A DNA stretch of 64,000 bases from Ulva prolifera (taxonomy: Eukaryota > Chlorophyta > Ulvophyceae > Ulvales > Ulvaceae): positions 2,166,022 through 2,230,021 of the forward strand of contig CM041202.1 in the NCBI GenBank assembly GCA_023078555.1, given 5' to 3'. The translations under genes and the position numbers were made by a program. Shown in pieces: positions 31,149 through 64,000 of this stretch (position 1 is its first letter; each line of letters opens with the position of its first letter). Under the pieces are notes generated by a model. It made no database searches. It saw only the letters and a list, made by a program, of their open reading frames with translations, and was not told the DNA's origin.

Positions 31149-34100
31149 ATGGGTTTTCTGCACGGTCTCGTTCCGGCCGTGTGCGCTGCGGCCATGACTG
31201 CAGCCACCACTGCATGTGCGCTCCCCCCACGCCACTGGCACCCCCCTTGCATATGCATGCTTCGAGTCCCGCGCAGCTGCAGCTGCGCGCCATGGCGTAG
31301 CTAGCCTTTCCGTGAAGTCGAAGCTGCAGCTGTGATGATCGCTCGTCACTGTTTCACGCGCGTGCGTCCAGTCATGTGGGCACGTTAGTCATGAGAGAAT
31401 GCATACTTACCACGTGTGCAGCTTTGATCAATCTCTGCACATGCATGCAGACCTGAGTCTGAGCTGCAGCCATGGCTCCTGCGATTTTAACAGGATGGCG
31501 GTCTGCATGGTCTGCATTGACACTGCCCTTGCAAGGACACAGTTGTCCACTACTAGCAGCTAGCTGTCTCAGTGAAGCATATCTGCATCACTTCAGACCG
31601 TTGATTCTGCCACAGTCTGCAAAAACAAAATAGATTAATTTGACCTGAGATGCTAGCACAGTCATGTTGTGGTTGAATGCAGCCTATCCTTGCAGACACT
31701 TTATCAAGGCAAGATATCTGCCAGCAGTAGGCAGTATGTGGTGCAGAAATCACATCACAGACCAAAGTATCTGAAAAGTGTTGTCCGGATGTTTGCCCAG
31801 CTTGCCCAAATACTTCACCCTAAGTGTGTGCCAGGATAGGCAAGCCTGGCGTCCAGCTGTATGCCAGTGCTGCCCTGCATTCATTCGTAAGCAACAAAAC
31901 CCCATTTCCTCCCGGCGACTGACTCTCGTCTTGCCTGTGCAGCAAGCCCTCCGGCATACTCCCCAGGCGATAGCATCGCCCGCTGCAGCATCTCCGGCAA
32001 CTCAGGAGGCAGCTCCCAGAGTGCCTCTGTGGCCGCCGAAGCCGGTGAGTCCCTGTCTCTCTATGTTCATCCCTGTGAACTTGAAATGACCCTGATTCAT
32101 TGTGTGTAACTTTCTTGAACTTGTAGTACTGATCCCAGCACAGCGCTATAGCGCTCCCTGTTTCGGCCTGCACCATCAACACAACACAATCTCAACTTGC
32201 CCAGGAGGTATTCCGCCGCCATGTCACACATCGTTGGGGCCGGTTGTGAAAGTTCACTGACCCACTCTCCCATGCTGCAGCGGCAAATGTGTCCATCGCC
32301 ATCTGCGACACCGGCTCCGCGTCGTTCGCGGTCGAAGAGGAGGCGACCGCCGAGGCCGTCGCAACGGCCGCCGCTCGCGCCATCGCTCAGGTGACGGCCG
32401 CCTGCTACTCCACCGGCCTCAGCACCTTCACGGTCAACGGCATGAGCCTCGCAACTGCCGAGGCATCCGCTTGGGCGTCGGCCTTCGCGACCGCCACTGC
32501 CGAGTCGTCCGCGTGCGGCAAGTGCGAAGCTGCCGCGACGTTCATCGCGGACACGTTCTCGGACATTCTGCTCAAGGCCGTGGCCTCCGCGGAGGTGAAT
32601 CTTGAGAAGCTGGACCCCGGCGCGGACGCGATCCAGGTCGCAAACTCGCTGGTTGAGGACATCCAGGAGGCCACCATCGTCGCCTTTGCCGTCGTATGCT
32701 TCACTCTCTCCAGGCCCACTTCCTGCCCTCTAGATCTGCCTCTTGCTGAGCTAAAATGTCTCGCCTCACTATGGCCACCCTTCGCTACTGCCTGTTCAGT
32801 ACATGACATCGTCTGCACCCACGAGAATCTGCGACATCATCAGTCTTCTGGCCCCTTTGATTCTGAAAGAGTGACAAATCCACCCACTCAGTGCCCGGTG
32901 TGCGACGTGCAGGCAATCGCCACAGCCAAGGCGTCCGTGGTGGAGGGCTGCAATGCCGAGGTGCTCGGCCTCGGAGAGGCAGGCGACAGCACCAACCCCA
33001 ACACCTTCTTCTGCAACGTCCAGTCCATCACCGAGGACGCGTCGTTCGCATACAACGCGATCATCGATGCGTCTGCCGAGGCCGCCGCTGCCGGTGGCTG
33101 CTACGCCAACGAGACTTCCTCCGAGACCGTTGCCGCTGAGGTGTGGACAGCCCTTCCCAGTAGTGGTAGCCTGCATCTCGTGGCCGCCCTCAGGCCGGTT
33201 CCAGCTGTGTTGCATCAGAGCCGAGTGCAAAGTTGCGGACGTATTTGTGAACCATCTGATAACCTCTTGAATGGCACTAGCACCAGCTGTAAATACTTCA
33301 TAGTTCAGCTTGTGGAGTAGATGTCAGCCAGCTAACTGGAGTGAGTGGTCGCTGTAGGAGCTCGCCGAGGCGTTTGCGTCCGCGCTCGCAGAGGTCGTTG
33401 TCGCATGTGACCTCGTCGGAACCGGCTCCATCTGCGCGCTCGGCGCTGCCGACATCAACACCACCGTCTACGCGACTGCTGAGATCTTCGCCCTGGGCTT
33501 TGTCAACGCGACTGGCACGTGTGCCAAGAACCTGTGCCAGGTGGACGTCGAAGCCCTCGCGGAGGCCGTTGCTGACGTCGTGTCGACCGCGGCGGCGTGG
33601 GCCGTTGCCGGAGGCTGCGCTGGCGACGACAGCTCCATTGATGTCATCCAGACCAATCTTGTGACCAACTCGACCATGATCAAGGCCCTCGCCAACATCA
33701 TCACACAGGCCACAGTCATCGACGGAACCTGCAGCGTCTTCCTCGACGTCATCGCCGATGCCGACGTGCTGCCCCCTGTGGTCACCAAGCCGGTCCCCGC
33801 TCCCGTCACCCCCCCTCCTCCCCCTCCCCCTCCCCCGGCTAAGGTCACCCCCCCTCCTCCCCCTCCCCCCGCACCCGCACCTGTCCCCAAGGGCAAGAAG
33901 GTCACCCCACCTCCCCCTCCCCCTCCCCCACCCCCACCCGCAGCCCCCAAGGGCAAGAAGACGACCCCACCTCCCCCACCCCCACCCCCACCCCCAGCTC
34001 CCAAGGGTAAGGGCAACGGCAAGGGCAAGGGCAACGGCAAGAAGGTCACCCCTCCTCCTCCTCCTCCTCCTCCCCCTCCTCCAGTACCCACTACCCCAGC

Positions 34101-34284
34101 ATGCTCCGGCACCTGCGCACGCAACAACCGCCAGTGCGCCGGTCGCCGCATCAACGGCGTGAAGGCGTGCTGCGACCCCGCGTACCTGTGCGTCAAGCGC
34201 AATGACGGCTTCTCGCAGTGCCGCCGCGGCGGCAAGCCCGGCCTCGTCAGCTGGGACGGATCCATCCTCGAGTGCCACTACTAA
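31149..34284 (+). CDS. Secreted Ala/Cys-rich polyproline protein with knottin-like end, paralogue 1
   Basis: Exons 31149-31215, 31943-32044, 32281-32693, 32913-33140 and 33358-34284 join in phase to 578 residues. A signal peptide (MGFLHGLVPAVCAAAMTAA) precedes an Ala-rich region with spaced cysteines: SIAICDTGSASF, ATAEASAWASAFATATAES, TFFCNVQS, CALGAADINTT. Residues about 421-513 hold four runs of 7-11 prolines separated by KGKK, KVT and a GKGKGNGKK spacer, as in hydroxyproline-rich wall proteins. The end (518-578) has cysteines spaced C-x3-C-x6-C-x10-CC-x5-C-x9-C and ends ECHY, like a small cystine-knot or CBM1-like sugar-binding domain. Paralogue 2 shares every domain. Four introns present in paralogue 2 are missing here, three of them inside the last exon. 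Several N-glycosylation sites occur (NTT, NAT, NET, NST). An extracellular-matrix role is inferred; I do not know a family name. Confidence 0.88.
33812..34089 (+). repeat. Polyproline-coding modules of paralogue 1
   Basis: Four CCT/CCC-rich blocks encode proline runs, separated by AAGGGCAAGAAG-type lysine/glycine spacers. The spacer plus ACCCCACC start is repeated nearly unchanged, which suggests growth by unequal exchange. Paralogue 2 has only a short P-x-K-V type hinge at this place. Confidence 0.85.
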
Positions 34285-37200
34285 ATGCGCCTCCTGCTTG
34301 CGGTGCGGCTGCTGCGGGGGTCGCTTGCACACAGCCTTGGCGACGGTGCACCAATTCACGGCCGGCCTTGACAGCGGCATTCAACTCCGAGAGCCTTCTA
34401 CATACCACTCCACATCAACAGTGCGATGAGCGAGTGCATGCCTGAAAAGGAAGAGTGTGGCGAAAATCGTCCGCCGCTACACTTTGCGCTCCCTTCATCT
34501 TGCGGATCCTGATCTCGAGAATCCTGAAGGTTGCATCTGGATGCGTGAGATGCAGTGGCTGCTGAGCTCTGTGGTTGAAGATTTGCACTGGAAGACACTG
34601 AAGCCGTTGCTTCATGGGTGGGAGTCCTCAGCCAAAGCACGCCCGAGATACGTGCCTGTGGAGCCACCGGGCATGTGGGAGGGAGAAGGGTGCATCCTGC
34701 ATGTGCAGCCACCCTTGCTGATTCGGGGTGGTGGGTTTTAAGAGATCTGGAAGATCCAGCCGATGCTGCGTTGCTCGCAGCCCTTTTTTTCGACTGCAAG
34801 TGATCCCGCTTTTGAATTGGATTTTAACCTCTGTATGGCAACTAGCAGTTGTCTTTGCTTGTGCTCGTCCCTCGTTGACATCCCTTGCCCAGTTTGGATC
34901 GCATGCAACCACCACATGATGGTTGGTTGATTGAAAGGAATGGAACCCATGTAGGATAGGCATGCTTTGCTGCCTGTGGTGAGCATTGTAACCTTGTGAG
35001 TCATTCAGACAACACATCAGTGGCACATGTACATCTCTGTCTATGGTTTGCATGTTTTTCAGCTTATTTTGTTCTCGAAGATCTCCTTGAAAGTCTGATC
35101 AGATACTATGGGATGGTCACAACAATGTACATGCCATTGTATGTGTTATCAGTGCAGCATCAGCCTAAGGCACACTGTGTGCCTTCAGGAAGATGTGCCA
35201 TGCTCACTGCGAACATGGCTGTGTGCTTATGTTGCCTGGGTTGCAAGCTGAAGGTTTTCAAGCTGCATGTGTCCTGGTTGTCCATGTTGAAAATGCAACA
35301 GCCATTACAAAAATGGCATCCAAATGATAAATAGGTATATATCGTACAGCGGTCATGTCAGCTGATTGTCCGAAAAGTCCGGCCCTTTTTTAGAGAAACA
35401 TCAAGTGATCAAGTAGTACGCTGCACTGCCTATCTCCTGTTAGGGCCATCACCAGCCTGCCTGATTTGATCAATGAACTTCATATCTTGCTTGCTCAGCA
35501 CAGTGCAAGCCCACTGCAAAAAGCCCACTGCATATCTGCGTACCACTGAGCAGTTGCATGACACACATATCCAGGCCTGACTGCGCCACTTTTGCAGGGC
35601 GCGACTGGCAGCTCGTGGGCGTCATCATGGGCAATAGGCAGGCCTTGTAATCCTCACAGAATTCCAGTACACTTACACGATTCAAACCTACTCAATGATC
35701 GGTGCGAAACACGAATCGTGTGTGCCTACCGTTCGGTAATGGGACTGCGAAGATCGGGCCTGATTGACATTTAAGCGTGTGCACGAATGTTGCTCTTACC
35801 TCTCCAGCCAGAGAGCTTCGTGTTGGGAATTTGGCTATTCGAGAAAGTGCGTCATAACCTGTGATTGTGATAGTGCAGCACGATGCCACTGCGGAGCTAC
35901 AGACCTGAACTCGTCGACACAATCTCGGCTGCCAGAAATGCGTGAACCTCATCGTGAGATTCAAATCTTTGGACATAAAATGCTTTACTGGTGAGTGCAG
36001 AGCTTGCTACTTCTGCCTCTTCACAGCTGGCAGCATGCAGCAGCTAGCTACGATGGCGTAGAGACGAACGCGAGCACTGGAGGCCTAGGTCTCCCCGCTG
36101 TGTCAGTGGAGTTACGTGGAGGCAAGTGCGCCTGCGTACTCTGTGGTTACGCATGCGCCGTGACTGATGTCTAGGGCATCATGTGCATTTGTACCATGGT
36201 GCTGTCGCTGTCAAGAGACGTCATCTGGCGTGACTGCACAAATCATCACAACCTCACAAGACGCGACCAATGGACACCAGATGCCACACTGAAGTCGAAG
36301 CGAGTGTGTGGTTCTCCTTTTTGAGATGGCAGAAGGAGTTGGACATACAAAACCTTTGACCAGCCCTGAACAGCATCAGTCTGCGGAAGTGTTTGATCAT
36401 GCACCACAACAGGCAGGCTACAGCGCTGCTGGATTGCTCTGCAGGACTGCTGTCCTGGTGTTGCAGGTGCACTGCCTTGCAAGGAGCTGCACACCATATG
36501 AGATGTTAATGGAGAAATTCTGTCTGCCTGCCTTGCTACCTGCCTCTCAAACCTTGTCTGTGTGTCACTGCCAAAAAACGTCACCATGAGTTCTGCCATG
36601 TGTCAACACACTGCCTCCTCATCCCGCATGAAGGTGCACTGCCATACGCTCTCACCAGGCTGCATTCCAGGCTGCAGTCCTGGCCACCAGGCTGCATTCC
36701 AGCTGCATTCCTGGCGCCACAAGTTCAACACACTTGCCCTCGCCTGCACTGCCCAGTCTAAGACTTCTGGTGCCAACGTTGACCTGCCCACTGGCAGTCT
36801 GGGTCTTCATGGCCATAGAGATGACATCATATGGTCAGGCCATGGCCAGACTGCAGCAGTGCCAACGCTGGACGGACTGCCCCCAGCCCTTTCCGCGAAG
36901 GAGCTTTCGCACCGCGTCGACGTCCCCAGTTCCCAGGCCAGCAGCCATTCGCCAGTGGTGGGGGCCCCCCAACTGGGTGGAGGGCGGGCCTCCGCCACTA
37001 GCGAACGGCTACTCCGCCAAGTTGGGGGGGGACGTGCTGAAGCAGCCACGCCGTGTCAGGAGTGCACTCCGAGTATGCATGTGGCGCTGCATGTCTCACA
37101 TGTCTCATGTGAACCCAGCACAGGTGTCTAGATATCAGCTGCTATCTGCTTGCTTGTCCTGTGAAATCGGCTGCAGGTAAGCGTATTGCCTGGGGTTGGG

Positions 37201-39865
37201 GTACATACCCCATATGACCTGAGCCACTGGGGGCCCACGTCTGAGGCTTCAAGCAAGTGCATTTGGGGAGCTTGGCGTGCATTATCCAGTGGTTGACTGC
37301 TGCATTACAGGAGCCTTGCATGTTGCGGCAATCAAGGATGTAGCAGCGGTAATACTGGATGGATGCTGAAAATTTCGATCTCGCAAAATGGAGTCCCACC
37401 CGCCTGGCTGATTCCTTGCCCTTGGGGCCTGCCACGGCCAGCATTCTGCTCATTCCCAAGGCACTCCCAGAGGCACATGCATGCATTTGCAAGATCTATA
37501 TGATATTGTTGGACAGACATTGATTTCCAAGATCATGTAATTCAGTATCTCAGTATTGTTCATGCTTCACATGCACAAGAGAGAGCATGAAAAACAGCAC
37601 CACAGATGCAGGTTAGTAAACACATGTGCACCCCACCACAACATCCATCCGGTGCGGCCGTTTCAGAGGCACAAAGAAGAGCTTGAGCCTTGCTACTGTA
37701 GCTGATCGTATCTGTCTTTAAAGGAATGAATTCACCTGGATTGCCGCCGTCCTCGTGACGGTAACGCCATGGGCAGGGTGCAAATGCAACTCCACTTGCA
37801 ACACCACCTCCACCAGGGCATCCGCCATGCTTGCGGCACTGGCTGGGGGATCTCCTCTGCCAGGCTGCCACACAGCCACAGGCAGGCGTGCCATCAGGAA
37901 TGTAACCACGTATAAGCCCCGGCCCCGTTGCCACGGAAGGGCTGAAAAGTATCATATAGTTGCAGGAGCTGAAAAGTATCATATACTTGCAGGACCCCGT
38001 GGCTACGCACTGCTGCACTGCTGCAATGCCGCCTCGGCGCTCGAGCGATCGCCACAGACTTGGCCACTGCAGGCCTAGGGAGGGGCTGTACACATGTGCT
38101 TGTCCACGCCTGGATCCTGGATTGTGCGGCAGTGGCACCAGACAATGTCCGTCCACAGGGTCCGTGGCCGCGAGGGCCCTGCTGCAGGGCAGAATTGGCC
38201 AAGCTTGGGCGGGTCATCCTCATGCATACAGCCTCGTACTCGCGCGCCTGCAGCTGGCGCCAGCTGCACACCGCGTGCGGCATGCATACACTGGGGGCCA
38301 CGGACGCTTAAAAGTTTAATTAAGCTAGCGGTGGTGCACTGGAGGCAGGTCAGCACCCGGGCACACCGCGATTCATGGATCGCCCCTGGCAGTTGCCCCA
38401 ATCGGGCTACAGTCGCATGTTTTACCGCAACGTTGATATTGAATTCGTGGCGATTTCAGCACGATGTGGCGTGTATAGGCGAGTCGTTGCAACTGGGTGT
38501 CCAAGGGACAGTGCTGCTCGTCGGCGTACACGTGTAGCTGTGCCACGAGTCGTACGACTCGACGCGTCCGAGCAGGCAGCACGAAGCTCGCTGTTGACCA
38601 ACGCTGACATGCTGGTCACCACTAACCCTGCGGCGAATACATACCCCTGTAGCCACACTCATCGCAGCGTGCCACAGCGCGTCGGGAAGCGGATAGTGTG
38701 CGAGCCCACCTGGTCCGAAGTAAAGTTAGAGTCGCGATTTTCCCGGTTGATCGCCCCAACAACCGGTCACGTATTGCTCGCAGGCTGGTGTGACGTACGG
38801 AGGCAGAGGATCACGAGATCAGATAGTGTTCTGAGCTCAAGGATGATGCGAGAGGAATTCCGGAATCACGATCACACTAGCCAGCCCCAGCTGAGCGAGT
38901 GAGGCGTGATGGAGGCTGATGCCCGGCCTGGCGCCGGGGCCAAGACACGCCCGACAGACAACGTCATCTACATGAGTGCCTGTTTCGGAAGTCCGCGCAG
39001 GCCGCGCGCAGGCCGTGCGGCGCCGAAGATTCTAGCGACACCGAAAGTGCGCATTATGTACGTCCCATGCGCCGCGTCGAAGAACATGAACTCTCGAACA
39101 TCTCGCCTGTTCGATATCTCGGTATGAAATTCGGGCAGGTGCGCATGCATGGGCCCTTGGAAGCCGGTGCCGGCGACACGCAAAGCGCCTGAACGTCCAT
39201 GCGCGCCCGATCGTCGCAAGCCATTTAAGCACCACTTTACCATGATCCGGTTATTGCATACAGCTATAGACTTAGCACACTTCGTAGCTTACAGCTTAGT
39301 CAGCGTTGTCCCGTGACACCTACATTCTAGCCGCTGGTCCAGCGAACCACTGCTGTTCAACAGAAGCAACCGTAGTAGCCCCAGGTGAGCTGATGTTCCT
39401 TCTCCTCGGAGTAAATGCTTTGCTCGCTTTCATCAGCACGCATGGCCACGCCAGCTACCATCCGGCTCGCCCCGTTTTGGCGCGGCCCGACGTCGCTGTT
39501 TCATGCTTTGCTCTATCCATGAGTTGAATCACACCGTGTCTTTCAGCTATCCACTGTTAGGTCTGTTCTTGATGCGTAGACATCATCTGTACTTCGTCGA
39601 GTCCTCAACATGATGTGCTTTCTCATATGTGGAGTATGCCGCATGCGTCGTCACTCCGTACGATTGTCCTTCGTATGGATGACTCCCGCTTACTCCGACT
39701 TCAATTCCCGATCCTCCCCAGCTTGTCTATGATGCTCCAGCGTTGTGTCTGCTGTTCCCCGGCGCCCCGTCGTCTGCTTTCGCATTACCGGTACTCCACG
39801 CCGTCAGAGCGCACATGTCGATGTACTACACCACCCTACGGCCAGCTTGGTGCGCGCATGGTACC
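34285..39865. other. No gene recognised
   Basis: Paralogue 1 3' UTR, then no supportable gene. A stretch around 36880-37070 is GC-rich and could hold an exon (frame reading TDCPQPFPRRSFRT), but no chain of exons forms. A 27-bp tandem duplication with GAAAAGTATCATATA occurs at about 37936-37990. Confidence 0.35.
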
Positions 39866-40414: not shown

Positions 40415-40819
40415 AGACAGCACCGTGAATCTCAGTTGTGCCAGCCTGGACTTTGATGCTGGCAGCAATGGTGGCCTGCCCCGCTCGCGACAGATATGTG
40501 CTTCAGCAGATCATTCATCGTTCTCACTGTTCCAGACAGGCACAGCCATTCTATCGTTTCCAAACACAATTATCACCGAAGTGCAGTTGTGTTTTTGCGT
40601 CGTGGCACGAAAACCGACCTGGACGCGGACAGGCTTCCGATCGGAGGTAATGCCAAAGCGCGGGCGATTCCGAATTCGAAGTTGCTGTGTAAAAGTGCGA
40701 CGGGATGCCGAGCAGTACAGTCGAGAAGCAGTCGCCAAGTGCCACAGCGACACTAAATGACAGCGCAAACTCGCCGTGAAAGCTATGCTTTACATAAAAA
40801 TGACAAACTAAGAATGTCG

Positions 40820-40919
40820 CGTGTTTCTGCTGTTGTTCTGATGCTTGTGCTTGGAGTTTTATCGAGACTGCGTGCCAGCGAGGGTGGCGTGGTGTACAAC
40901 CGTTAGGGAAAATAACATG
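40820..40919. repeat. Paralogue 2 5' leader, right copy of a 100-bp inverted duplication
   Basis: Covers the region just upstream of and including the paralogue 2 start codon (for example GCGAGGGTGGCGTGGTGTAC). The partner lies 780 bp upstream in reverse direction. Confidence 0.85.
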
Positions 40920-43900
40920 GGGGTTTTCCAAGGCGCACTGCCGGCAGTGTGCGTGGCAGCCCTCGTGGCCAACAGCGCATCAGCACGCAGTGCGCTTCTT
41001 TCCGCTTCGCTGTATAGATGCGTTCGGTCACCGCGGGTGCACCGGTTGACTGTTGAGTTCGACGTGCGTCTTGCACTCAATTTGTCGCGATGCAACTCGA
41101 TCTCGGTCATCTCGCATGCACGCCGCGGCGCGCACATGACCACCTCGCACGTGCTGCTGCGCAGCACGTTCCATCAATTTCGTGGGTGTCAGTGGACGTG
41201 GAGTTCGACCTGCGAGCTACGGTTGCATCGAGAGCTACCAGCTGCCCAACGCGGGCGCCATGGACACATGGATTGCTCCAGCATCACCCAAGCCATTGGG
41301 ACATGCATACGAGCTGCTGTCGCATGCGATGAGCATTGAATCGCTTATGCCTGTGGCTGTAGCGTCCACTGCTCTGCCTTACGGCTTGCGCTCTGCGACA
41401 CGCGGAGAAGCCCTCATGATTTTATCTCCACCGAAGCGGGAGCCAAGCCAACACTCTCAGCTACACCTGCCTGATTTGTGAGTTTGTTGTTCAACACAGA
41501 CTTGCGTGGCTTTTTTTTTAATGTTACTGGGGATGTCCCAGCCCTGTCAGCACTGCCTTGTGAAAGATTCTGCTGACACATATGCTGATCAATATATACA
41601 GCAGCCATGCACTGATACCAGTGTCAGTGCAAGAGTCAAGTTGATTGGCCCATAGAGCCTCAAAAGGCTGCTCCTGCTGCAGGTTTAGCATCTACACCTC
41701 CTCCTGTCACCCCTTCGCCCGGTGACAGCGTCGCCAAGTGCAAGATTGACCTCTCTTCTTCTGGATTCGTCCAGAACGCCAAAGCCATAGCCGTCACAGC
41801 TGGTGCGGCCCTGATTCATTCACGTGGCCAGTCAGCACCTTATCCCCCAAACCGACCTGTCGTTCTTTCCCCCTGTTGCTACAGCTATATGTACATCTGA
41901 ACCTGGACGCGCCCTAGATCTATTGCCCGCTATGGGACTGGAAACTTGCAATAGCTTGTGGGACATGGAACACATGTTTGTGGATCTGACTGCATTGCTC
42001 TTTCACCACTGAGCAGGCCCCTCTGAACCAGTCCCACCAGGCAACCAGTCTTCCCCCTGAGCGTATATTAAACCGTCTTGAGCACTGCAGCTGAAATTTG
42101 ATTCTGTCTGCAGCTGCTGAAGTGAGCCTGGCTATTTGCGACACTGGCAGTGCTCAGTTTGGCATCACCGAGACGGCCGTAGCAAAGGCGACCGCCGAGT
42201 ACGCCGCGAATGCCATCGCCTCGGCATCCATCGACTGCTACTCACGTGCGCCGCCCCCCCCCCCCCCCCCCCCCCCCCCCCCCTTCTGCCCTCACCTTGT
42301 CTTTGTATTGTCTTTGTATTTTGTAGTTCGTACTCTGTTCTGTCTAAGGTTTCCCATCCCTCCATCTGCAGGTTGCTGTCTTATAGCCCAGCTGAGTAAC
42401 ACAATGCTGGCCAGTGGTGGTAATCTTTCACATGTGTGGGGCTGGGGCTATCCCGCACCCCTTCTCCACTGCCGACCTCCGAACCCACACCACTCCAATG
42501 CTCTTCTGTGGTGCAGAGGGCCAGTCGCAGTTCAAGGTCAACGGCAAGTCCATCGCTACCGCGACGGCGCAAGCCTGGGCTTCCGCCTTTGCTGAGGCAA
42601 CTGCGACCGCGTCGGTCTGCAACAAGTGTTCCTCCAAGGCCAGTGTCTTTGCATCTGTCGTGGAGGATGTGATCATCACCGCCACCGCGAAGGCCGAGTT
42701 TGACATCAGCTCTGCAAAGGGCGGGCCCGTTCAGGTCGTTCAGATCATTGACCGGGTCATCAAGGAGGGCACCATTGTTGCCATTGCCACGGTCCGTCTA
42801 TCACATACCATGCTCTCTTGCGGAATACCAGTTCCGGCGCCTACCGTCTGTCCGTAGTAAGAAAGAAAGTTAGCAGGTCTGCAAGTCAATTAGCTGATGT
42901 GCTGAATTTCCTAAACCCTCTTTGTGCTCCAATACCGTCTTGTGACTTGATGTTTGCTTTTCCATCTGGTGTTTGTCAGACGTTTCCTGCACGCATCTGT
43001 TGGCCGCATCGGGCAGCGGGTGGGAAACGAAGAGAACCTGTCCTTTTGCTGACTGGATGGGACTCGCTGCAGGCCGTCGCTGATGCCCGTGCTAGCGTCC
43101 TCAAGGGCTGCGAGACCGAGGTCCTCATCGAGGGTGCTGCTGGAGAAAGCAAGAACCCCAGCACCTTCTTCTGCAACGTTCAGTCGAACGCCCTCGACCT
43201 GAGCATCAAGAAGGACGTCATCATCAAGGCCGCCAACACTGCCGCTGCGTCTGCTGGCTGCTACGAGAACGACAGCGTGACATCTATCCTCGCTGCTGAG
43301 GTGAGCCTTTGGTGCCTCAGAGCATGCCTGCTGCCGTCCCTGCCATACTGCTGTGTATTATGCTATTTTGGTTGGAGCAGTATCCACATGCCATGCTTGC
43401 GCAAGTTTAAGGCTTGTCTGCTCCAATCTACTGCTTCGATCAGCAGGCTTGCTGATTGTGTACTGGCTTCTTAAGGCCGGAAGAGGAGAGGTGACGGGGA
43501 TATTGGGGTGCAGGAGCTCGCTATTGCCGCTGCCACAGTGCTGTCGGAGGTTGTTATCGCCTGTGATGTCGTTGGAAAGGGTGGCGCATGCGCTCTCGGC
43601 GCCGCCGACATCAACACCACCGTCACCGTACGCCCCGACAAACCCCTGACCATTTCCCATCTCAGACTGCACTGTGCCATGCAGCCTCTTGCACATCACA
43701 ATTCCTGACATTGGCAGAAATCCTTCACTGCCTGTGTGTTACCGGAATTCCTTCTTAAGGAGCAGCAGCACACGGGTTGAGTTGTGGCACCAGTGTCGTT
43801 CAATTCGTGGTAATGTGCAGGCCACCGCAACTGTCTTTGCCCAGGCGTTTGCCAACGCAACCAGCACCTGCAAGAAGTCTCTGTGCAAGGTCGAGGTAGA

Positions 43901-44496
43901 TGTCATCGCTGAGGCTGTCGCCTCAGTGCTGTCCAGCGCTGCCTCTGCGGCCAAGGCCAACGTTTGCTTCGGTGCGACCTCGTCTCCCACCGCCGCTCTT
44001 CCGAGAAGCAGCACCATGGCGGAATGCACCTTGCAGTGTCGCAGGGCTGCTATATGTAACCGCTGAACGTGGCTTTGGATCTGCACCTAACCTTTGCACC
44101 TAACCTTTGAAGGCAGTTACCAGTACCCGCCTGCAATTATCGATAGCCATTTCTGTTCGTATCTCCTGGGACCGTCCCCTATTAAGCCGGCACTATTTCC
44201 TGACCTCAACCACGGTCTGATGACTGATTTCTGTGCTGTGTGCAGACAACACTGCCAGCGTCGACATCGAGGTGTTTGAGCTCGTGTCCAACGTGTCCAC
44301 CATCAAGGCCCTGGCCAGCATCATCACCTCGGTACGCTCCTCTGCCATCGCCCATTGCAGTCAGTTGTGACATGTGCTCGGTGATGGTAGCATGTAGTGT
44401 ACTTCATCTTTGATACAAAAGACCGGAATCAGGACATTAGGTGTTGTTGAGGCGTATGTCCACAGCTGAACTTCACAGCAGGTGTCTGCACCATGC

Positions 44497-44565
<69 letters not shown>

Positions 44566-45110
44566 GAGCATCGCAGCTGTGTCCAATCCTTCCAGTGTTG
44601 AATTGTTATCCTTCCTTGCTGACATTTGTGGGCGTGCCCTCGATTGTGATATGGTCGAAGCAATCACCTTTCCATTCTCCAGCTGGATTGTGTGTGTGAG
44701 CATTGGATTGTGGCTCATTGGGAGGTGTTTCGATGCAGGCTTCTGTTGTGGATGGTGTCTGCAACATCAAGATCGATGACATTGTGGCCAGCACCACCAC
44801 CGACAACAAGGTGACCGTTACCGAGGGCGTCACTGTCATCATCAACGGAGTGCCCCAGGTGTTCCCGGCCACACCTGTGAAGGCTCCCGCTACCCCTGCC
44901 CCTGTCAAGGTCCCTGCCCCTGTCAAGGTCACACCCCCCGCGTGCGTTGGCGCTTGTGTGGTAGATGGGAAGCAGTGTGCCAGCCCGAAGATGCCTGTCG
45001 CCCCCTGCTGCGGCGCCTCCTCTCAATGCATTTCCATCGGCGGCGGGGCAGGCGTGTGCGCCCATCTCGTCAACACGAAGAATGTGGCGATTTTCCCCTG
45101 CACCCACTAA
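40917..45110 (+). CDS. Secreted Ala/Cys-rich protein with knottin-like end, paralogue 2
   Basis: Exons 40917-40989, 41683-41802, 42114-42245, 42517-42791, 43073-43300, 43514-43627, 43821-43971, 44246-44331 and 44739-45110 join in phase to 516 residues. The start is chosen from the signal peptide MGVFQGALPAVCVAALVANS, which aligns with paralogue 1. Matching blocks: SPGDSVAKCKI, SLAICDTGSAQF, ATAQAWASAFAEATATAS, STFFCNVQS, CALGAADINTT. Exon 5 has exactly the same length (228 bp) as its partner in paralogue 1. The hinge is short (PVKAPATPAPVKVPAPVKV, about 438-456) rather than long proline runs. The end keeps C-x3-C-x6-C, a CC pair and further cysteines, finishing FPCTH. Four extra introns relative to paralogue 1. 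Probable extracellular wall or matrix protein by inference; function unknown. Confidence 0.87.
42254..42283. repeat. Poly-C tract, 30 bases, in a paralogue 2 intron
   Basis: Starts 8 bases after the GTGCGC donor at 42246, the same relation as in PEPC intron 9. Paralogue 1 lacks this intron. Confidence 0.95.
44499..44565. repeat. GT dinucleotide microsatellite in paralogue 2 intron 8
   Basis: About 32 GT units, noncoding, between the exons ending 44331 and starting 44739. Confidence 0.95.

Positions 45111-48950: not shown

Positions 48951-48954
<4 letters not shown>

Positions 48955-49008
<54 letters not shown>
48955..49008. repeat. TA dinucleotide microsatellite
   Basis: About 27 TA units directly after the third repeat unit. 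It yields spurious Tyr-Ile open frames on both strands. Confidence 0.95.
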
Positions 49009-49011
<3 letters not shown>

Positions 49012-49299
49012 CTCTCCCAGGGGGGCCACGTTCCCTCAGCAGGACCCGTACGCAATCCTCTTCAACATCAAAATTAACATGTGACCGCACACTACATCCT
49101 CTGTGCACCCACATGCACCAGCCACACCGCCTCCGGGCATGCTGCGCGCCGCGTGCAGCGTGTTCCATCCGTGGCAGCCCACTTCAGTTGCCCCTTGACT
49201 TTGCAGCTCTAACAGACCCACAGAGAGGGTGGCTGGCTCAGGGCCACCTTGTCGCCCCGTAGTATTCAGTGGCGGTGCCTGCCCACGGATGTTGCCAAT

Positions 49300-49344
49300 T
49301 GTGGCAATCCAGTGATATGGCCGCTATACCACTGGATTGCCACA
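49300..49344. repeat. Palindromic repeat, 45 bp, possible short target duplication
   Basis: Identical in its core to the 1619 unit, including the direction-giving mismatches. CCAATT occurs immediately on both sides, which would be a 5-6 bp target duplication. Confidence 0.85.
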
Positions 49345-55075: not shown

Positions 55076-55514
55076 CATGAGCAATTGCAAGTATACCAGT
55101 GCGATTGATCCACTGCGCCGTTGCTCAACATTTGTACTCTCACACGACGAGGACACTTGTGCACAGAAGGAAGTTGAAGTTCCGGGGTGGCTCTCGACGT
55201 GGCGGAGCTTCTGGAGTTGAATAGGGGGCGTCCGTGTCAATGTCGCAGGTCTGCAGCACTCAGTCGTCTGAATTCAACGCTTGTGCTCGTATATGTACGA
55301 AACCTGTACATGTGCAGCGCTGATGCATACTGCAGCTGACAAAATACACGGTGCACCACATCGATGCCATCGATGCCACCTGATCACTGCTTGCCAGCTA
55401 AGCACTGTACAAGAATCTCTACAACTGCAGTGATCACACATCGTGTGTGGCACAGCCACAATGCTGCAGCCTCAACTCGGAATGCGAGCTGCAGCGCAGC
55501 CCCGGCTGGCCATG

Positions 55515-57105
55515 GGCCAGGGGGGTGGGCACTCAGCCCTCATGCACGTCCACCGGGAGCGCGGGCACCTCAGAACGCTCTGGAAAGCGCTGGGAACATC
55601 TACAAACTAATTAAAGCCTCCTGGGTGCCACTGTATCTTTGTTTCAAGCCGCTGGGCAAAGTCGCACTTTTCCGTCAGAATCGTATGCATGGCTGGGCAC
55701 AAAGACAAGTTTTGCCCAACGCTGACCAGCGCTCGCCCATTGGGCTCAGAACATCCATTATAGTTACACATGGCCCATAACGAGGTTGTCTTGCTATTTG
55801 GTGGTGCTGTGGGCGGTTCAGCAGCAGTTTTGACATGTATGGGTTGCTGCACACCACCTGCAGCCTTCTTGGAAGCGACACTGCACGAAACAAGCACCAT
55901 AGAAGTGTGATGTCAAGTATTGAGCTCTCCTGCTGATGTGCATGCTATTGCGCAGCCTGGATTGCTCAGGAAGCGTTGTGCAGTGAGCAACACACTAATC
56001 ACAGACTGAGTTAGCAGTATATGGCTGGCTGCTCACATCAGTATCAAAGGCTGGGTGGTTTACGAGCTAAACCTTGCTCGGGTCGTGTGACACTGGAAAC
56101 ATCCAGTTGTGTGACAATTAAACTGCTTCTGTGTGACACAAGATACGTGTGTAGATGCCATGAGTCCATATGATGCTGCTGCGTCTTTCAAACGGAGACT
56201 TATCAATTGTCGCGTCCGGTGTGGAGTCAGCTATGTTTTGTTGCAAGCCACTCCAGGTGTGAGCACATGTAGGCGTGCTGACATGTTTGTGAACGTGCAC
56301 CACACAGGTCTGATGCATTAGGTCATGTATCGCAGTGAGACAGAGCTGTAATTTCATGGTAAGAGAAAAACCAAAGCAGCGTGCGTTGTGCGTCACTCTC
56401 ATGACATTGTGCACTGCACGCCAGATCAATGCTGAAGGCGTGGCCTCAGCACAGCCTTTCCGTCTTGTGAATTCAGAATCAGTGGACCACGGCCAGTAAT
56501 GGACTGCTTCTTGCCTAGTGGCCAGGTACTGATCGGAAAGTGACAAGTAAAATTCGCGCTGGTTGAGTCTGGATATCGAGCTTTCAGCTCGAAACCAGGA
56601 TCGTGTCCTCATCAACCTGTTCCGGCCGATTGACACAAATGCTTTGCAGAGTAGATAACAGACATATTATTCAGCAATATATGCCTAATCGTGGTGATCA
56701 GCCCCGGCGAGCTGGTCGCTCGCCGTGGCCACGCTGACGAGTCGTCGCGACCCGTGCCGTCAAGTCAGACGGACACCAACAACCAGCTGACTTATCAATG
56801 ATCACCAGTGACACATATTATGGTGTTTTCGAGGTGTTCTCGGCCCACCGAGGACAATGGGCATGCGCTGGGCTCCGTTTGACGCCATATATATATGAGC
56901 CGTGCTGGGCAAAACAGCACTTTTGGTCAAGAACCCCTCAAATCGCTGGGCATTCACACCTGTTTCGCCCAGTATGCTTAAGACCGATTCAGGTTGTTCT
57001 ACTCAGTCTATAGCTCTTTAAAGCGTGTTCCAGAGCGTTCTGAGGTGCCCGCGCTCCCGGTGGACGTGCATGCAGACCGAGTGCCCACCCCCCTGCTAGC
57101 TACTC
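55515..57105. mobile_element. Element with long terminal inverted repeats, copy 2
   Basis: The left arm begins CAGGGGGGTGGGCACTC, followed by ATGCACGTCCACCGGGAGCG and CACCTCAGAACGCTCTGGA. The right arm ends with the complement: TCCAGAGCGTTCTGAGGTG, CGCTCCCGGTGGACGTGCAT and GAGTGCCCACCCCCCTG. The arms are about 270-300 bp and related to copy 1 (CGTCCACCGGGA, TTGCCCA/GGGCAAA motifs) but form a different subfamily. The interior of about 1 kb has one 172-codon minus-strand frame (56118-56636) that I do not recognise. No clear target duplication. Confidence 0.65.
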
Positions 57106-59016
57106 CGAAGCCATTAATATGCAGATATTTGACTATGTGCAGCCTAAACGAGCGTTATTGACGCCCAGGTTTGTCATCCTACCAGCCACGAGATGGACTG
57201 AACGATACTTACAACCGGCGAAGACAGTGACTTCAACGTCTGATCACGCGAAATCGACAGACACCAAGCGCAGGATAGACTTGACTGTCATTGGGTACGA
57301 AGAATCTAGTGATTCGTAGGCGGTGACGGATCTGGGAACCAGCTCACCTGCGTGTCCCCACGCTCAACAGAGTCTCACGATGCCGCCACAGCACTCGTGC
57401 TCGGCAAACAGAACGCAAATGGGTACGTAAATTGTCTCTACGTCGACGGACGACGCCGGCGCATGCTGATCTCGAACATCGGTGACCGAAGCAGGTGGCT
57501 TGCACACACAAACACACGCTCCTGACGATCCACATGCATCACCCAACACGCGCAGGCCCGTACCGAACACCCACAGATACTCATAGGTACAACATATCGC
57601 ACGATCGGCGACCACGGTCGTCGCAATATAGCTATTCGAGTGGCGCTGAAGTCGCGCTCGATCACCCGGGAGAGCTCCCCAAACAGCCCTCCGGGTGCCT
57701 GTCCCTGGTCAAGTCATTCTTGTAGTGGCTGGGCCCATGGCCAGCTGCGTACATTGTGGCTGTGTGTGTGTGTGCCTAAACGCTGACTTACTCGGAAGCG
57801 ATCATTTTGCTGATGTGTCTGCCCTGATTTACTCTCCGGTAATATTACCAGCTGCGGAAGCTTAGGCCCTTCATGTCCTTGACCAGTACTGATGGAGCGC
57901 CTGATGTGATCCGAACACGCGACGGCCAAGTCCTTCCGAGCTTGCATTCACTATCTATCGATACATCGGCCCGGGCTGTGCACAGCTGTGCAATCTAGGC
58001 ACCTCGATGCACAACGATGTGATACCGTATCACAGAATAGACAAGGCTGATCATGAGCACTGCGCATGAGCACTAGTGAACGGGAGAAGACAAACCCCAA
58101 AACCGAGCCTCATCAAACCCCAAAACCGAATATGTCTGTGCACAGCATTCATTGCATACAGCGCTGTATGGGCCTAAAGTGGCCGATCGGGAGGCTGGAG
58201 TGGTATGCCAGCCCCACGATTTTTACAAAAGAAGGAATGGGCCCACGCGGAGGAAATTCTTTTGTGGTGTTTGTCTTCTCCCTTGTACACAGAGTGCATG
58301 CACGCGCAGGCGTAACGGGACAATTGTTTGATGTACCAGATGGGACTCCCGGACTTGAATGTCACAGTCGGACTTGAATGTCACAGTCGGACTTGAATGT
58401 CACAGAAGAACGAATTCGAACGCGTCAGAACAAACAATTCCCGACAGTCTAGACTGATCTTGATCAACAAACCGTCCACGCAAACAGCCACACTGCAGCA
58501 TTGCCGCATAAGCACGCCCCTTATATCGAGATAGACCGGCAGGACTGGACAGTACTAGTTCGGACCCGAACAGTTTATTCTGTTTTGTTCTGTATTTCTG
58601 CAGCTGCGACCATGGCCATGCATGCCCGGGCCGGTGTCAGCTGAAGCTACGCAGCCAGCAGCGTCGAATGCTCTCTACACAAGTTCAGAGGTTTACAGCT
58701 ACCAGGGGCGCGCGAGGCCGCATGCGCGCTGTGAGTTCGCGGCCGATGCCGTTCACTTCGCAGCAGCGCGTGCCCGCGTGTGTACACTTCCAACACCGCT
58801 GAGAGTCCATCGCCAGGAGGCAGTCATAACATTCATTAACGATGCATCAGCGGTAAACCTGACGGGTTGCTGATACTGTACACACGAGAGCCGCAGCCGA
58901 CTTTGGTGCGGTAGGTGTTTTCGCATTCGCCCGCTTCAGGCAGGTGCACCCACGCGTGCATCCGCGTATATCTGATTCGATTTACAGCCTGCGCAGAGCA
59001 TGCTCTGAGATCCCTC
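57106..59016. other. No gene recognised
   Basis: Contains a LINE-tail scrap at about 58077-58112 (minus strand, GAACGGGAGAAGACAAACC). A 19-bp unit GGACTTGAATGTCACAGTC is repeated three times at 58351-58405. A second LINE-like scrap may exist near 58230-58290. No exon chain. Confidence 0.4.
58351..58405. repeat. 19-bp tandem repeat, three copies
   Basis: GGACTTGAATGTCACAGTC at 58351, 58370 and 58389 (last copy partial). Confidence 0.9.
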
Positions 59017-59140
59017 TTTACAAAACAGTGAACTGGAGACAAACACCAAAACCGAATCTCATCCGAACCAACAGCAACACATACATACTATGTAGTACAC
59101 GATCACACTACAACCGCACCCACACCTCAGTCCGGCAGGA
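59017..59140 (-). mobile_element. LINE 3' tail, 5'-truncated
   Basis: On the minus strand it runs from the last codons and stop (GATCCTGCCGGACTGAG) through a diverged GT-rich 3' UTR to TTTTGTAAA. It belongs to the same family as 21246. Confidence 0.75.
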
Positions 59141-59205
59141 TCTTGGCCATGTGATTCTGAATGGATGCAAAGCAATCGTACAACAGGACTCCTGCACACG
59201 ACGCA

Positions 59206-59269
59206 CTTGATTCGGATGAGATTCGGTTTCAGTGTTTGTTTTCTCCCGTTCATTCTTTTGTAACACAAG
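59206..59269 (+). mobile_element. 64-bp LINE 3' tail with perfect 26-bp target duplication
   Basis: Only the last 64 bases of the LINE (TTGATTCGGATGAGATTCGG to CTTTTGTAACACAAG) lie between two identical 26-bp copies at 59180-59205 and 59270-59295 (starting ACAACAGGACTCCTG). Such a short insert with an intact duplication is diagnostic of abortive target-primed reverse transcription and must be recent. Confidence 0.95.
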
Positions 59270-59624
59270 ACAACAGGACTCCTGCACACGACGCAGCCGG
59301 ATGGATCCGGAGACACACCAAGCGAGAGCTGTGATCGATATCGCTGCAGAACTGCACTGTGACACCCATTGTCAAATACCGCGCGTGAATTGTGCAGGAA
59401 CAGTACAGACGCGCATTGTCATTCAAACACATCACATGGCCGGCGTGTGAGAAATGTTGGTGCCACAGTGTCCGGCCCCATGCGTACATGCCGCGAGGGC
59501 GCATCGGCCGGCCGTCGCTGCGTGCCACGTGGCGGCGTCCAGATCTAGACAGTACTGTCTAGTGGTCTACAGTCCGCCCGAAAGTCAGTGCACAGAAATT
59601 GTTATTTTATTCTTTTTATGAAAG

Positions 59625-59685
59625 TCCGGGCAGTTTTCTGGGGCGGCGCCGGAGTCCTCCGCGCCATCCCAGAAAACTGCCCGGA
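59625..59685. repeat. 18-bp inverted repeat with paired loop
   Basis: TCCGGGCAGTTTTCTGGG (59625-59642) is exactly complementary to 59668-59685. The 25-base loop pairs further through GGCGC and GCGCC. Stable hairpin of unknown role. Confidence 0.85.
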
Positions 59686-61212
59686 GTGCGAAATTTTTTT
59701 CCAGGTGCTTGACGAATGTTCTGCTCTGCAGCTGCATAAGGTTTGTAGCTGTGCACAGACGTGGCGGCTGGCACGTTAGACTTCACGTCATTTCGACAGT
59801 AGGGCTGAGATGGAGGCCGAAGTTGACCGCTTGACTGAACTGCTTACAAGAGGAGTTGATGCACCGCGCGTTGATTTTGTGTAAGGGTTAAGCATATGTG
59901 TTTTGCTTTCTTCCGAGTGCTCTTGCATGTGATAGTTTTTCTTCCGTGTATTCGATAAGCGACGAGCGAATGCGCGGCTTAAGCCCCGCGTTTGCGAGGA
60001 GCCTCTCACTCCGCGCACCAAAAAACTTTGGCCCTGACACCCCGGGCAAATTGAAGAGTCAGAGCGGGTACTCCGATGCGAAATTTAGAGTGGCCCTGAC
60101 AGCCCGGGACAAACAGGAATGTTTTGTACACCACTGCGTCCAGAGAACAGCGGCCACAGCAACGAAACTCAACGGCGGCGCCGATGCTGTGCACAGCGTA
60201 CGATGGCAGACGAGACCCAATGCATGGCCAAACAAATTACATGTTGGTGACGCTCGGCCTGGCTTCCCCGTACATGCCAGGTGTCCCCGCGAAAGCTCAG
60301 TCGGGGACAGAAGACGTGCGATCGAAAATCCGCTAGCGAAGCGCTTCGTAAATAGCACTCCGGCCACGATCGCCGTTGCATTGGCTCTTCCCGCAATCCT
60401 GTAATGCAAATTGCACCAACTCCATTAATATTCACCTTTCCTTAGCTTGTTTCCACCGCCGCGCGGTTGAGATCACGCCACAGTGTTCCGCACGCCTTTC
60501 GTGCTCCAGCTCGAGCTCTGCCAGTGTCCAGTCATCCCCTTCGCTCGAGACTGACCTTGAATTCATCAGTTATCAAGCTGCATCGTTTCTTCCGGTATCA
60601 GGTGAGCTGCTTGCAAACATTCCAGTGCGCTAGCTGGCACGGCGCGGGTGCATGGCCCCGAAATCTTGGCGCGCTGCGATCGATCTGACCGCACCCTTCT
60701 CACATCCGCAGCATCGACGCACAATTGCCAAATTTCACCTTGATGCGGCATCTTGAACACGCCCTGATACCAGCGGAAGGTAGTTTTATCCCCGAGGCGA
60801 CCCGCAGGGTCGCGAATCATGATACGCGAGGCGACGCCTGTCTCACTGCGAAGCCAAGATGTGACCTTGCGCGCGTTCATGCGTCATGTGCGAGCGCCAC
60901 GCGCAAGTGCCCGCCGCGTTTGACTGCTGGTGTACAGTCAGCCACAGCCATGTGACTTTCGTGTGGTCAGCTGCCGCCGTTGGCTTCCCATCCAAACGCC
61001 GTGCTATAGCATGCTAGGGCGCGCGGATCGCCAGTGCTACAGACGGCCTGGCCATGGGTTCATCTGGGGGTGAGTGTGTATTCTGCATGCATGGCGACAG
61101 GCTTGCACTGTTCTCATACACGCGATGCGTTGTGCGTTTGCGTGTGTATATGTATGAACTCGTCGGTATAGTTATAACTACATGTAGCTGCATTCGGACG
61201 CACCGCGGCGTA

Positions 61213-61313
61213 GCCGCATGGTTGTAGTGTGGTCGTGTATGTATGTGTTGGTGTTGATTCGGATAAGATTCGGTTTTGGTATTTGTCTTCTCCCCTTCAC
61301 TCTTGTGTAGCTC
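61213..61313 (+). mobile_element. LINE 3' tail with 12-bp target duplication
   Basis: A diverged 3' tail ending TTCACTCTTGTGTAG. CACCGCGGCGTA flanks it at 61201-61212 and 61314-61325. Confidence 0.85.
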
Positions 61314-61721
61314 CACCGCGGCGTACCCGCGCGTCCACACCGGCGGCTGTGGTTCCCCTGCACGGGTCCGGATCGCAATGCCCCGTTGAACGTCGCGAAT
61401 CGACTCGCGATGGCCGTGCAATGCATTCCTTTGCCGGCCGGGCCTCAGAGCCCGCTGTCCCTGCCGACGTGTCGCCTCGCACCTATGGCCACCGCTTGTT
61501 TGCTGCATCAGCATGTGTGAATACCGACTGTGAATACCGACTGGAAGCTCGAACACTGCGAGAGGCGGCTGTGCTGGACACCGCTTGTACCTTGGCTAGC
61601 AGTCACGACGTCTTGCCCCTCACAGCCCTAATACTGCAGCTTTTGTGCAGCTGGCTCGTTTTGTGTATCATATGAGGCGCTGCAAGATCACCGACCCGCT
61701 GTGACCGACTCCAGCTGTTGT

Positions 61722-61899
61722 TGGGTTGCGGTATGATGCGGGCCTGGAGGACGCGATCCTGCCGGACTGAGTTGTGAGTGCGGTTGTAGTGTTCGTGTGT
61801 GTGTGAGTGTATGTTGCTGTTGATTCGGATGAGATTCGGTTTCAGTGTTTGTTTTCTCCCGTTCACTCTTTTGTAACACAGATCTCTTTTGTAACTATT
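61722..61899 (+). mobile_element. LINE 3' tail with 14-bp target duplication
   Basis: Begins near the last 13 codons (RYDAGLEDAILPD) and carries the stop and the whole 3' UTR, ending with TCTTTTGTAAC twice. ACTCCAGCTGTTGT at 61708-61721 and ACTCCAGCTGCTGT at 61900-61913 flank it, with one change between them. Confidence 0.85.
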
Positions 61900-62405
61900 A
61901 CTCCAGCTGCTGTGGCGTGCGTTGCGTCTACAGCAGCAGTGACGCGACGCTCGGCCTGCCTTCGCAATGTAACTCTGAAGCAATTGTCATCAATAGCTAA
62001 TGTGAGTTCTTCAGTACCCTGCTACCGCGACGAAATGCGTCGCTGCAGGCTGTCAGCAGCAACTCCTCCGCAGACCTCGGACATCAGCAGGGCTGACCAC
62101 GCCTCCAAATTTAAGCACGACACAGTCGATAAGTAAGTCTGTTGCGTGGTTTGGCGTGCTGTCGCAACAGCGCAGCACTGCAGTACGATATCGATGTCCC
62201 GGCGTACCGGCCAATGTGCAGATCTGACGCCAACAGTTGCATAAGCTGATCAAACAAGATGTGCAGTTGCATATGCAGGATGCGAATTGTTGTTATTTTT
62301 ACCCCATCAGCTGAGCACATGCGCCCCGCTGTAAAGCATATGTAGAACAGGTGCACGATATCTAAATTAACGAACGACAGCTCACACTCCGACTGCAGGT
62401 GTTGC

Positions 62406-62513
62406 TGCGAGGTGAGCACCTCGCATGGCAAGAGCGGTTTGAGGCATCAGAGCCACACGTGAGAGTAATGACTGCCTCAAACCGCTCTTGCCATGCGAGG
62501 TGCTCACCTCGCA
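62406..62513. repeat. Perfect 41-bp inverted repeat, 26-base loop
   Basis: The arms 62406-62446 and 62473-62513 are exactly complementary (core GGCAAGAGCGGTTTGAGGCA and its complement). Each arm also contains a nested near-palindrome, GCGAGGTGAGCACCTCGC. Arm and loop size are in the range of algal microRNA precursors; transcription is unknown. Confidence 0.92.
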
Positions 62514-63563
62514 GGGCACCTGTGCGTGCCACCGCAGCTGGTCTCTTGAGCCATGCCTGCTACAGCAACACATGCCTGGCACCTGCACATGCCTGCTGAA
62601 GCATCTGGCATAAAACCTATGACCCACCAGATTCCTTGTTCGCCACCGTTGATGGATGGAGACCAAGCAATGCACGATGATGGGAGACCCAGCAGTACAG
62701 TTGCCAGTCGTGGTGCATGTCCTTGACAGTTCGGCTCCTACTTCGCTGAATCCTCTGCAGCAGCAGCGTCATCTTGCCCTTCGAAGGAATTCCACCTCTT
62801 CTCCCTTTGCACCTGGTCTCTTGGCCAATTGCGAAGCCTATTTGACATCAACTGCGACAGTTCCATGCCCTCCGTGACGTCGTGCCCAAACTAAGTAGTA
62901 CGGTAGCTGGATGCTTCAGATTCAGTGTGAGATTTCAATTCGACAGGATCCCATGATACTCAGAATCGTGAGGACGACCTCCTGAGTCCGCTGCATATGG
63001 AATAACTCCAACCCAACACGTGGGATTGATCAATTGTAGCACACACAGCTGCTCTGTGGCTGTGGGGGTGCCATTGGAGGGGGGCCATATGCATGTGTGG
63101 GCAGAGATGTTGCGGGTTGTTTGCGTCAGAGGAGGTGCTGCATGCTGCCTGCTGTGGCGTAGGTGCGTTGCGCTGGGTCGGTGGGCGTGTTAATGCGCTG
63201 CCCGCCTCGCCGTCTGTCCTAGGTCAGGCTGGTCAGGCAGCCGCTCTCGACCCTCCACCCGGTCCTCAACACTACAGCTCTCTAGCGCCCCCACAACCAC
63301 AATGTGCACCACACAACCAATTTGTGCACTCACGACTCGTTGCGCAAGAATGCCCACCGCCACACTGCTGCCGACGGGCCTCCTGCGGCTCATGCAGCGG
63401 TGCACGAACCGCAGACGATGGCTGCAGACACCTGCCGACCTTGCACCAAACTGCTCCACCAGCCCGTGTGTGTGCAGGTAGAAGCTTGAGGACCGCGAGA
63501 ACAGAGCGCCGAAGCGCCCTCAGCTGCTGGTGACTCTGCCCTACTGCCGCCACAGGAGTAGTC

Positions 63564-64000
63564 ATGGCCAAGTGGGCTGCCCCTGTTGCCCTCGTGCTGG
63601 CGTCGCTCCTCCGAGCCGAAGCCCAGATCGGTGAGTCCCACCTGACCGCCTACATCACATGAGACTTGCTCATGTCTTTATGGTTGTTTCTGATTTGTGA
63701 AGCAACAAGCGCACCTCCTCGTCCGCGTCCTTCTGAATGACCCCCGGGCTCGCTGGTACAGCCCTTTGCCACTTCCCGAGATACACGTGGCGCTAGAAAC
63801 AGGTATGTTGCAGCATGTTGCACCCGATTGTTGCTTGCGGCGCCGCCCTGCCTCGTGGCGTCCGTTTCCCAGACCGCAGCATGTATGCCGAAGCATGGAA
63901 GGACCCCCCCGGCGCCATCTCACGCTGACCGCAACTCCGCATGCAGTTGGGACCAATTTCGCTTCCTGCACGCTCACCGGCCGAGCCTCCGGCATTGGAG
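63564..64000 (+). CDS. Paralogue 3 of the secreted Ala/Cys-rich family, 5' end only
   Basis: Exon 1 (63564-63630) encodes a signal peptide, MAKWAAPVALVLASLLRAEA, and ends one base into a codon before GTGAGT. Its length, 67 bp, and phase equal those of paralogue 1. Exon 2 starts at 63947 after GCATGCAG and runs to the window edge: VGTNFASCTLTGRASGIG. That aligns with DSIARCSISGNSGG of paralogue 1 and DSVAKCKIDLSSSG of paralogue 2, with the same intron phase. The rest lies outside the window, so domain content is inferred from the leader, phase and first Cys motif. An unrelated secreted protein remains possible. Confidence 0.6.

Follow-up and report, generated by a model that had tools for sequence, protein, structure and literature searches.

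What kind of protein is encoded by the Ala- and Cys-rich genes in a 64,000-nucleotide stretch of the Ulva prolifera genome (C7:2166022-2230021, where C7 is contig CM041202.1; hereafter the window, to which positions refer unless a contig or locus is named)? An earlier note, made from the letters of this DNA alone, had described three paralogues beginning at 31149, 40917 and 63564 (genes 1, 2 and 3) as a three-member family of secreted proteins with a polyproline hinge and a knottin-like C-terminus. Using the whole assembly (88.9 Mb, 44 contigs), we find that the three genes belong to a much larger set, and we propose, with a probability of roughly 0.55, that this is a large family of modular Ulva proteins, secreted into the cell wall or matrix, with a layout resembling that of the pherophorins and without a pherophorin domain. 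Read from sequence, the order of a signal, an Ala-rich Cys domain, a linker or stalk and a module of polysaccharide-binding type most likely points to a building block of the wall or matrix.

A search of the genome with the Ala-rich domain of gene 1, in which 102 of 137 candidates were scored, gave at least 89 exon matches at E<=0.01. These form clusters at 54 loci, distributed over six contigs with 21 loci on C7, in place of the three members first described; such match counts are lower bounds, and some of the weakest matches may be false. At 35 of the 54 loci a match to the C-terminal module of gene 1 lies within 5 kb downstream on the same strand, where about 0.1 such pairings would be expected by chance (arithmetic from 79 module hits, 88.9 Mb and two strands, ignoring clustering). 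When each member in turn was left out of the family profile, all 21 aligned members scored 70-103 bits, the best shuffle reaching 15.0 (200 shuffles per member), and therefore the grouping of these 21 is not due to composition. The alignment concerned (A3) was picked by hand and holds 21 of 58 rows for the Ala-rich exon, after removal of fragments, near-identical rows and rows that came from other stretches. A tree of these 21 cores pairs genes 1 and 3 as sisters and sets gene 2 apart, at a place that is weakly supported. Searches of viral contigs and prokaryote genomes with single-exon queries, whose reach is limited to close relatives, found no homologues. Among the matches listed, we found no paper whose title or abstract opening describes the family, a scope that does not extend to the U. 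mutabilis genome paper.

Genes 1 (31149-34284, five exons, 578 residues) and 2 (40917-45110, nine exons, 516 residues) are complete, with GT-AG boundaries at 12 of 12 introns and 23 Cys in each protein; gene 3 extends past the end of the window, and more conserved exons and a C-terminal module follow in the unspliced sequence L004. The leader exons of genes 1, 2 and 3 (67, 73 and 67 nucleotides) all end in phase 1, as had been claimed, and genes 1 and 2 have the phases 1,1,0,0 in common, gene 2 having four extra introns. The block P-x-GDS-[IV]-A-[RK]-C, said to occur in all three genes, is present in genes 1 and 2 as S-P-GDS-[IV]-A-[RK]-C, but gene 3 has V-GTNFASC in its place; looser variants, such as QDSVARC, VDSLARC and SSIAKC, occur in frames upstream of the core at other loci. 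The CNVQS and CALGAADINTT blocks, the Ala-rich segments and the Cys-rich end were all found in both complete genes. The N-termini of genes 1-3 are hydrophobic and signal-like, which agrees with the secretion proposed earlier. Between genes 1 and 2 the nonsynonymous (dN) and synonymous (dS) divergences are 0.52 and 1.18 (dN/dS ~0.44), and for the close paralogues L021 and L022 they are 0.011 and 0.115. A blastn comparison of genes 1 and 2 yields three alignments, which stay within exons apart from five bases at a single splice acceptor. These are real, constrained protein-coding genes, under purifying selection.

The Ala-rich, Cys-rich domain is about 350 residues long in gene 1. Five Ala, two Cys and a single Gly, Asn and Glu hardly vary, if at all, across the core alignment. 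No Pfam-A family passes its cut-off in this domain, and a profile search with the core found no PDB relative at E<=5, in agreement with the earlier note, which could name no family with the shared block. Pfam matches to PAV1-137 and TRP_2 fell below their cut-offs and were taken as chance. A second Ala-rich stretch lies after the CNVQS exon. Iterated profiles had suggested that it arose by internal duplication, but a clean-profile control did not support this, since it scored the second stretch of gene 1 at 3.2 bits, below the 6.6 bits of the top one among 1000 shuffles.

Across about 20 positions of the core alignment Ala alternates with other residues (A-x-A-x), and in the segment SLATAEASAWASAFATATAESSAC the period-2 Ala profile of the 21 paralogues was reached by 0 of 2000 permutations, which bears out the alternation described earlier; in the two following segments the signal has p values of 0.07 and 0.002. 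The segment contains one Pro among 504 residues. It had been suggested that such a pattern could be silk-like, in which case the alternating segments would form strands whose Ala faces stack into sheets. Besides the period-2 signal, the hydrophobicity of the first segment argues for this: its maximum falls at the strand period (permutation p 0.026), with no significant signal in the helix band (p 0.24). However, if the residues between the Ala are judged by eye, offsets 1, 9, 13 and 17 carry hydrophobic or aromatic residues and offsets 11, 15 and 19 polar ones, which might be read as one face of a helix, with the caveat that the every-fourth-place hydrophobic spacing from offset 9 is not significant (permutation p 0.068). 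Structure prediction, which the earlier note had recommended for this region, gave helices in the segment in a two-sequence AlphaFold model, but at a predicted local distance difference test score (pLDDT) of 45.5 this is too low to count as evidence. Moreover, the segment is only about 24 residues long and ends at a Cys with no long repeat, and Ala is a poor strand former. We consider stacked strands less likely than not, though they are the strongest of the alternatives.

The hinge of gene 1 contains 59 Pro in 109 residues, forms long Pro runs with Thr and Lys, lacks Ser, and has a net charge of +14 with no acidic residue. This is the polyproline hinge of the earlier note, but the term does not carry over to gene 2 (9 Pro in 42 residues, net charge +2) or gene 3 (11 in 50). 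A run of Pro in translated L004 was rejected as the hinge of gene 3, since the underlying C run directly follows a likely splice donor and is probably part of an intron. Long C runs stand directly behind splice donors in gene 2 intron 3 (42254-42283) and likely in gene 3 (L004 from ~3028), and because they are in introns they read as false polyproline when translated. Taking the 50 residues that precede the module in 19 members (two of which have a shorter open stretch), 10 contain at least 15 Pro; a proline-rich stalk is common in the family, not general.

A second alternative arises from the basic hinges, namely that the proteins are cross-linkers that bind the polyanions ulvan and glucuronan through basic hinges or tails and not through the Cys module. 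The gene 1 hinge would suit this function, as would a member at L046 (708-1265, minus strand; C7 ~139 kb) with a KKHNRK-type basic repeat tail of net charge +36 in 110 residues, near which no Cys module was found. Nevertheless, linkers before the module range in net charge from -10 to +9 across the 19 members and most are neutral or acidic, the hinge of gene 2 has a net charge of +2, and the charge of the module core does not differ significantly from that of Ulva CBM1s (p 0.098), a result on which retuning of module charge was also rejected. We regard binding through basic hinges or tails as rather unlikely.

The C-terminal module is about 60 residues long and has eight Cys in all 19 copies of a hand-picked alignment (A4, 19 of 26 module rows; two cut duplicates, three near-copies, one true CBM1 and one degenerate row were dropped). 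The Pfam family it matches most often is CBM_1 (6 of 19 modules at E<=1, best E 4.6e-4), and one family locus scores 20.7, summed over the frame, against a gathering score of 20.6, with a second at 17.6; the modules of genes 1 and 2 gave no CBM_1 match in Pfam. When the CBM1 profile was compared with shuffles in which the Cys were held fixed, eight of the 19 modules, that of gene 1 included, beat 500 of 500, and three more were equalled or beaten by only 1-2 of 500. The module resembles CBM1 beyond Cys spacing in 11 of 19 copies.

As for the knottin-like end of the earlier note, a small Cys-rich end is indeed present, and from these comparisons it looks like a remodelled, CBM1-derived module. 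The knottin idea would make the proteins agents of defence, secreted from an expanding gene family, with the knottin end acting on microbes or grazers. Four of 19 modules do match the knottin family Toxin_7 weakly (best E 0.058), a spider knottin ranks third in a PDB profile search with the module (E=1), and the family is large and divergent. However, CBM1 matches are stronger and more frequent, most of the chain is the large Ala-rich domain, and the dN/dS between genes 1 and 2 is that of constrained genes, so we consider defence improbable. Least likely is a role in protection from stress such as ice or desiccation, for which regular Ala-rich segments in an intertidal alga and the analogy of Ala-rich antifreeze proteins could be cited, against the 23 Cys of each complete protein, the CBM1-like module and the lack of any antifreeze or late embryogenesis abundant (LEA) family among the Pfam matches.

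Of the 79 module hits, 44 were not assigned to an Ala-rich locus, two of the 44 being a classical CBM1 gene (L053). Classical CBM1 modules are present in the same genome (L049-L054), and several of them have, as the derived module does, an extra adjacent Cys (CC). At C4:3296984-3402415 there is a tandem array of 16 CBM1-like module hits, with no Ala-rich domain detected, and C9:36160-50794, near a contig end, carries four such hits, three of which score identically to C4 hits; some of the array might have been duplicated on C9 or assembled twice. At L068 (1489-2568, minus strand; C7 ~2094 kb) a CBM1-like module adjoins an EGF/Teneurin-like exon (PF23106, at its cut-off); the two are neighbours and may belong to one gene.

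Returning to the wall or matrix proteins that we favour, the chain would begin with a short signal-like leader, followed by a mature N-terminus near S-[IV]-A-[RKS]-C, the Ala-rich Cys-rich domain, a linker that is strongly proline-rich in about half of the members tested, and, at most loci, the eight-Cys CBM1-derived module. We infer secretion, glycosylation, polysaccharide binding, self-association and a function in the wall. Where present, the proline-rich linker would be hydroxylated and glycosylated to give a stiff rod, the Cys module would hold a wall polysaccharide and the Ala-rich domain would pack against other copies of itself. The wall polymers listed for Ulva are cellulose, ulvan, xyloglucan and glucuronan (PMC10762512).

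Several observations weigh against this reading. The signal peptides are putative, called by the single criterion of hydrophobicity. At 19 of the 54 loci no module match lies within 5 kb, although gene 2 is counted among these 19 because the gene 1 module, used as query, misses its divergent module. In nine of the 19 members the 50 residues ahead of the module hold fewer than 15 Pro, and in three of these nine they hold none, so the rod is not general. The module of gene 2 cannot be told from its Cys-fixed shuffles (213 of 500), and seven others are not clearly distinct from theirs (10 to 69 of 500). In CBM1, three aromatic residues have roles in the cellulose-binding face; the aligned positions are aromatic in 2, 0 and 16 of 19 modules, so that with the binding aromatics mostly gone cellulose binding cannot be assumed. 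Finally, the structure models of the module (pLDDT 50.2) and of the Ala-rich domain (45.5, as above) are both poor, and a fold search with this module model found no significant match.

A more far-reaching version, which we offer as a speculation of doubtful standing, is that these ~54 loci form Ulva's own wall superfamily, arisen independently of the volvocine pherophorins, in which a new, self-assembling, disulfide-rich domain with a strict Ala-x-Ala packing motif is tethered, in many cases through a proline-rich rod, to a descendant of CBM1 retargeted from crystalline cellulose to, for example, ulvan or glucuronan. The wall polysaccharides of Ulva are well described. The wall proteins named in the sources cited here are arabinogalactan proteins and, by genome annotation, 'collagens', 'elastins' and 'extensins', with an expansin called by similarity (PMC10762512, PMC9266709). 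A family in which an unnamed Ala-rich domain is joined to a CBM1-derived module would provide specific candidates for proteins that build a multicellular wall in green lineages other than Volvox and land plants, and would be an example of CBM1 reused in the wall, its binding face altered.

Table 1. Exons and protein segments of the three genes, in window positions.
Feature	Position	Strand	Remarks
Gene 1 exon 1, leader, signal-like	31149..31215	+	Phase 1; GT donor, MGFLHGLVPAVCAAAMTAATTA
Gene 1 exon 2	31943..32044	+	Block SPGDSIARC
Gene 1 exon 3, Ala-rich core	32281..32693	+	ACGKC
Gene 1 alternating-Ala segment	32445..32516	+	SLATAEASAWASAFATATAESSAC; period-2 Ala in 21-row alignment
Gene 1 exon 4	32913..33140	+	CNVQS block; 228 nucleotides, length equal to gene 2 exon 5
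Gene 1 exon 5, second Ala-rich stretch, hinge, C-terminal module, stop	33358..34284	+	CALGAADINTT
Gene 1 polyproline/lysine hinge	33769..34095	+	Single open frame with module
Gene 1 C-terminal CBM1-like module	34096..34281	+	Eight Cys, 62 residues
Gene 2 exon 1, leader, signal-like	40917..40989	+	Phase 1
Gene 2 exon 2	41683..41802	+	Block SPGDSVAKC
Gene 2 exon 3	42114..42245	+	
Gene 2 exon 4, Ala-rich core	42517..42791	+	VCNKC; alternating segment ~42549-42620
Gene 2 exon 5	43073..43300	+	CNVQS block
Gene 2 exon 6	43514..43627	+	CALGAADINTT block
Gene 2 exon 7	43821..43971	+	Second Ala-rich stretch
Gene 2 exon 8	44246..44331	+	
Gene 2 exon 9, end of Ala-rich domain, short hinge, degenerate Cys module, stop	44739..45110	+	
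Gene 2 short hinge	44811-44936	+	Pro mainly from 44865 on
Gene 2 degenerate Cys module	44937-45107	+	
Gene 3 exon 1, leader	63564..63630	+	MAKWAAPVALVLASLLRAEAQI; phase 1
Gene 3 exon 2, cut at window end	63947..64000	+	VGTNFASCTLTGRASGIG; later exons and module in L004

Elsewhere in the window, exons of a phosphoenolpyruvate carboxylase (14055-16332, plus strand; PF00311, E 7.7e-14 and 3.1e-52) are the sole neighbour that could be named among the 20 of 32 long open reading frames scanned, and no RNA families at gathering score and no tRNAs were found. The last intron of gene 2 contains a (TG)32 microsatellite (44500-44564). The G+C content is 52.5-64.4% per 4-kb slice, with 12 of 16 slices within 54-60%; the genomes of U. 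mutabilis and U. compressa have 57.2-57.3% (PMC9266709), which fits. The Ulva 5S primer 5S-F (sequence from PMC13333886) has 68 exact sites genome-wide, 55 of them in a single 5S rDNA array with a 404-bp unit at C9:2003628-2025457.

How does this family compare with known systems? With the knottins, or inhibitor cystine knots (Toxin_7), the module has in common that it is small, Cys-rich and contains CC, but the match is weaker than that to CBM1. In most rows the module shares with CBM1 (PF00734) the Cys pattern, with a Q-C-x-G start and a C-x5-C-x3-[NSD]-x2-[FY]-[SA]-Q-C end, whereas it has an additional pair of Cys at the N-terminus, is extended at the C-terminus by W-[DE]-G-x-I-L-x-C, and lacks two of the three binding aromatics. 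The proline-rich hinge of gene 1 and nine other members recalls the extensins and other hydroxyproline-rich glycoproteins, the hallmark of extensins being repeated motifs of Ser followed by three to five hydroxyprolines. In the two hinges scored this motif is missing, as neither the 109 residues of gene 1 nor the 42 of gene 2 contain Ser; the gene 1 hinge has its long Pro runs with Thr and Lys instead, and the Ulva proline-rich hinge, unlike extensins, is flanked by modules on both sides.

A close comparison is with the pherophorins, whose domain we take to be PF12499/DUF3707. This domain gave no match at E<=5 in gene 1 or in the first 364 residues of gene 2, and none in the genome at E<=1, where no positive control responded and its absence is unproven. 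The pherophorins of Volvox and Chlamydomonas, 118 and 35 in number, are laid out as dumbbells, with a proline-rich rod in the middle whose length varies strongly (PMC9818292), and both families are large green-algal matrix gene families, in the Ulva case by our reading, with end parts split by such a rod. The order of parts in gene 1 fits two putatively globular ends around a Pro-rich rod, and a Pro-rich linker is present in 10 of 19 members. The Ulva family differs in that it has the Ala-rich domain and the CBM1-like module instead of PF12499, and in that the rod is missing from about half of the members tested. In our reading, the Ulva family would work like a pherophorin without being one.

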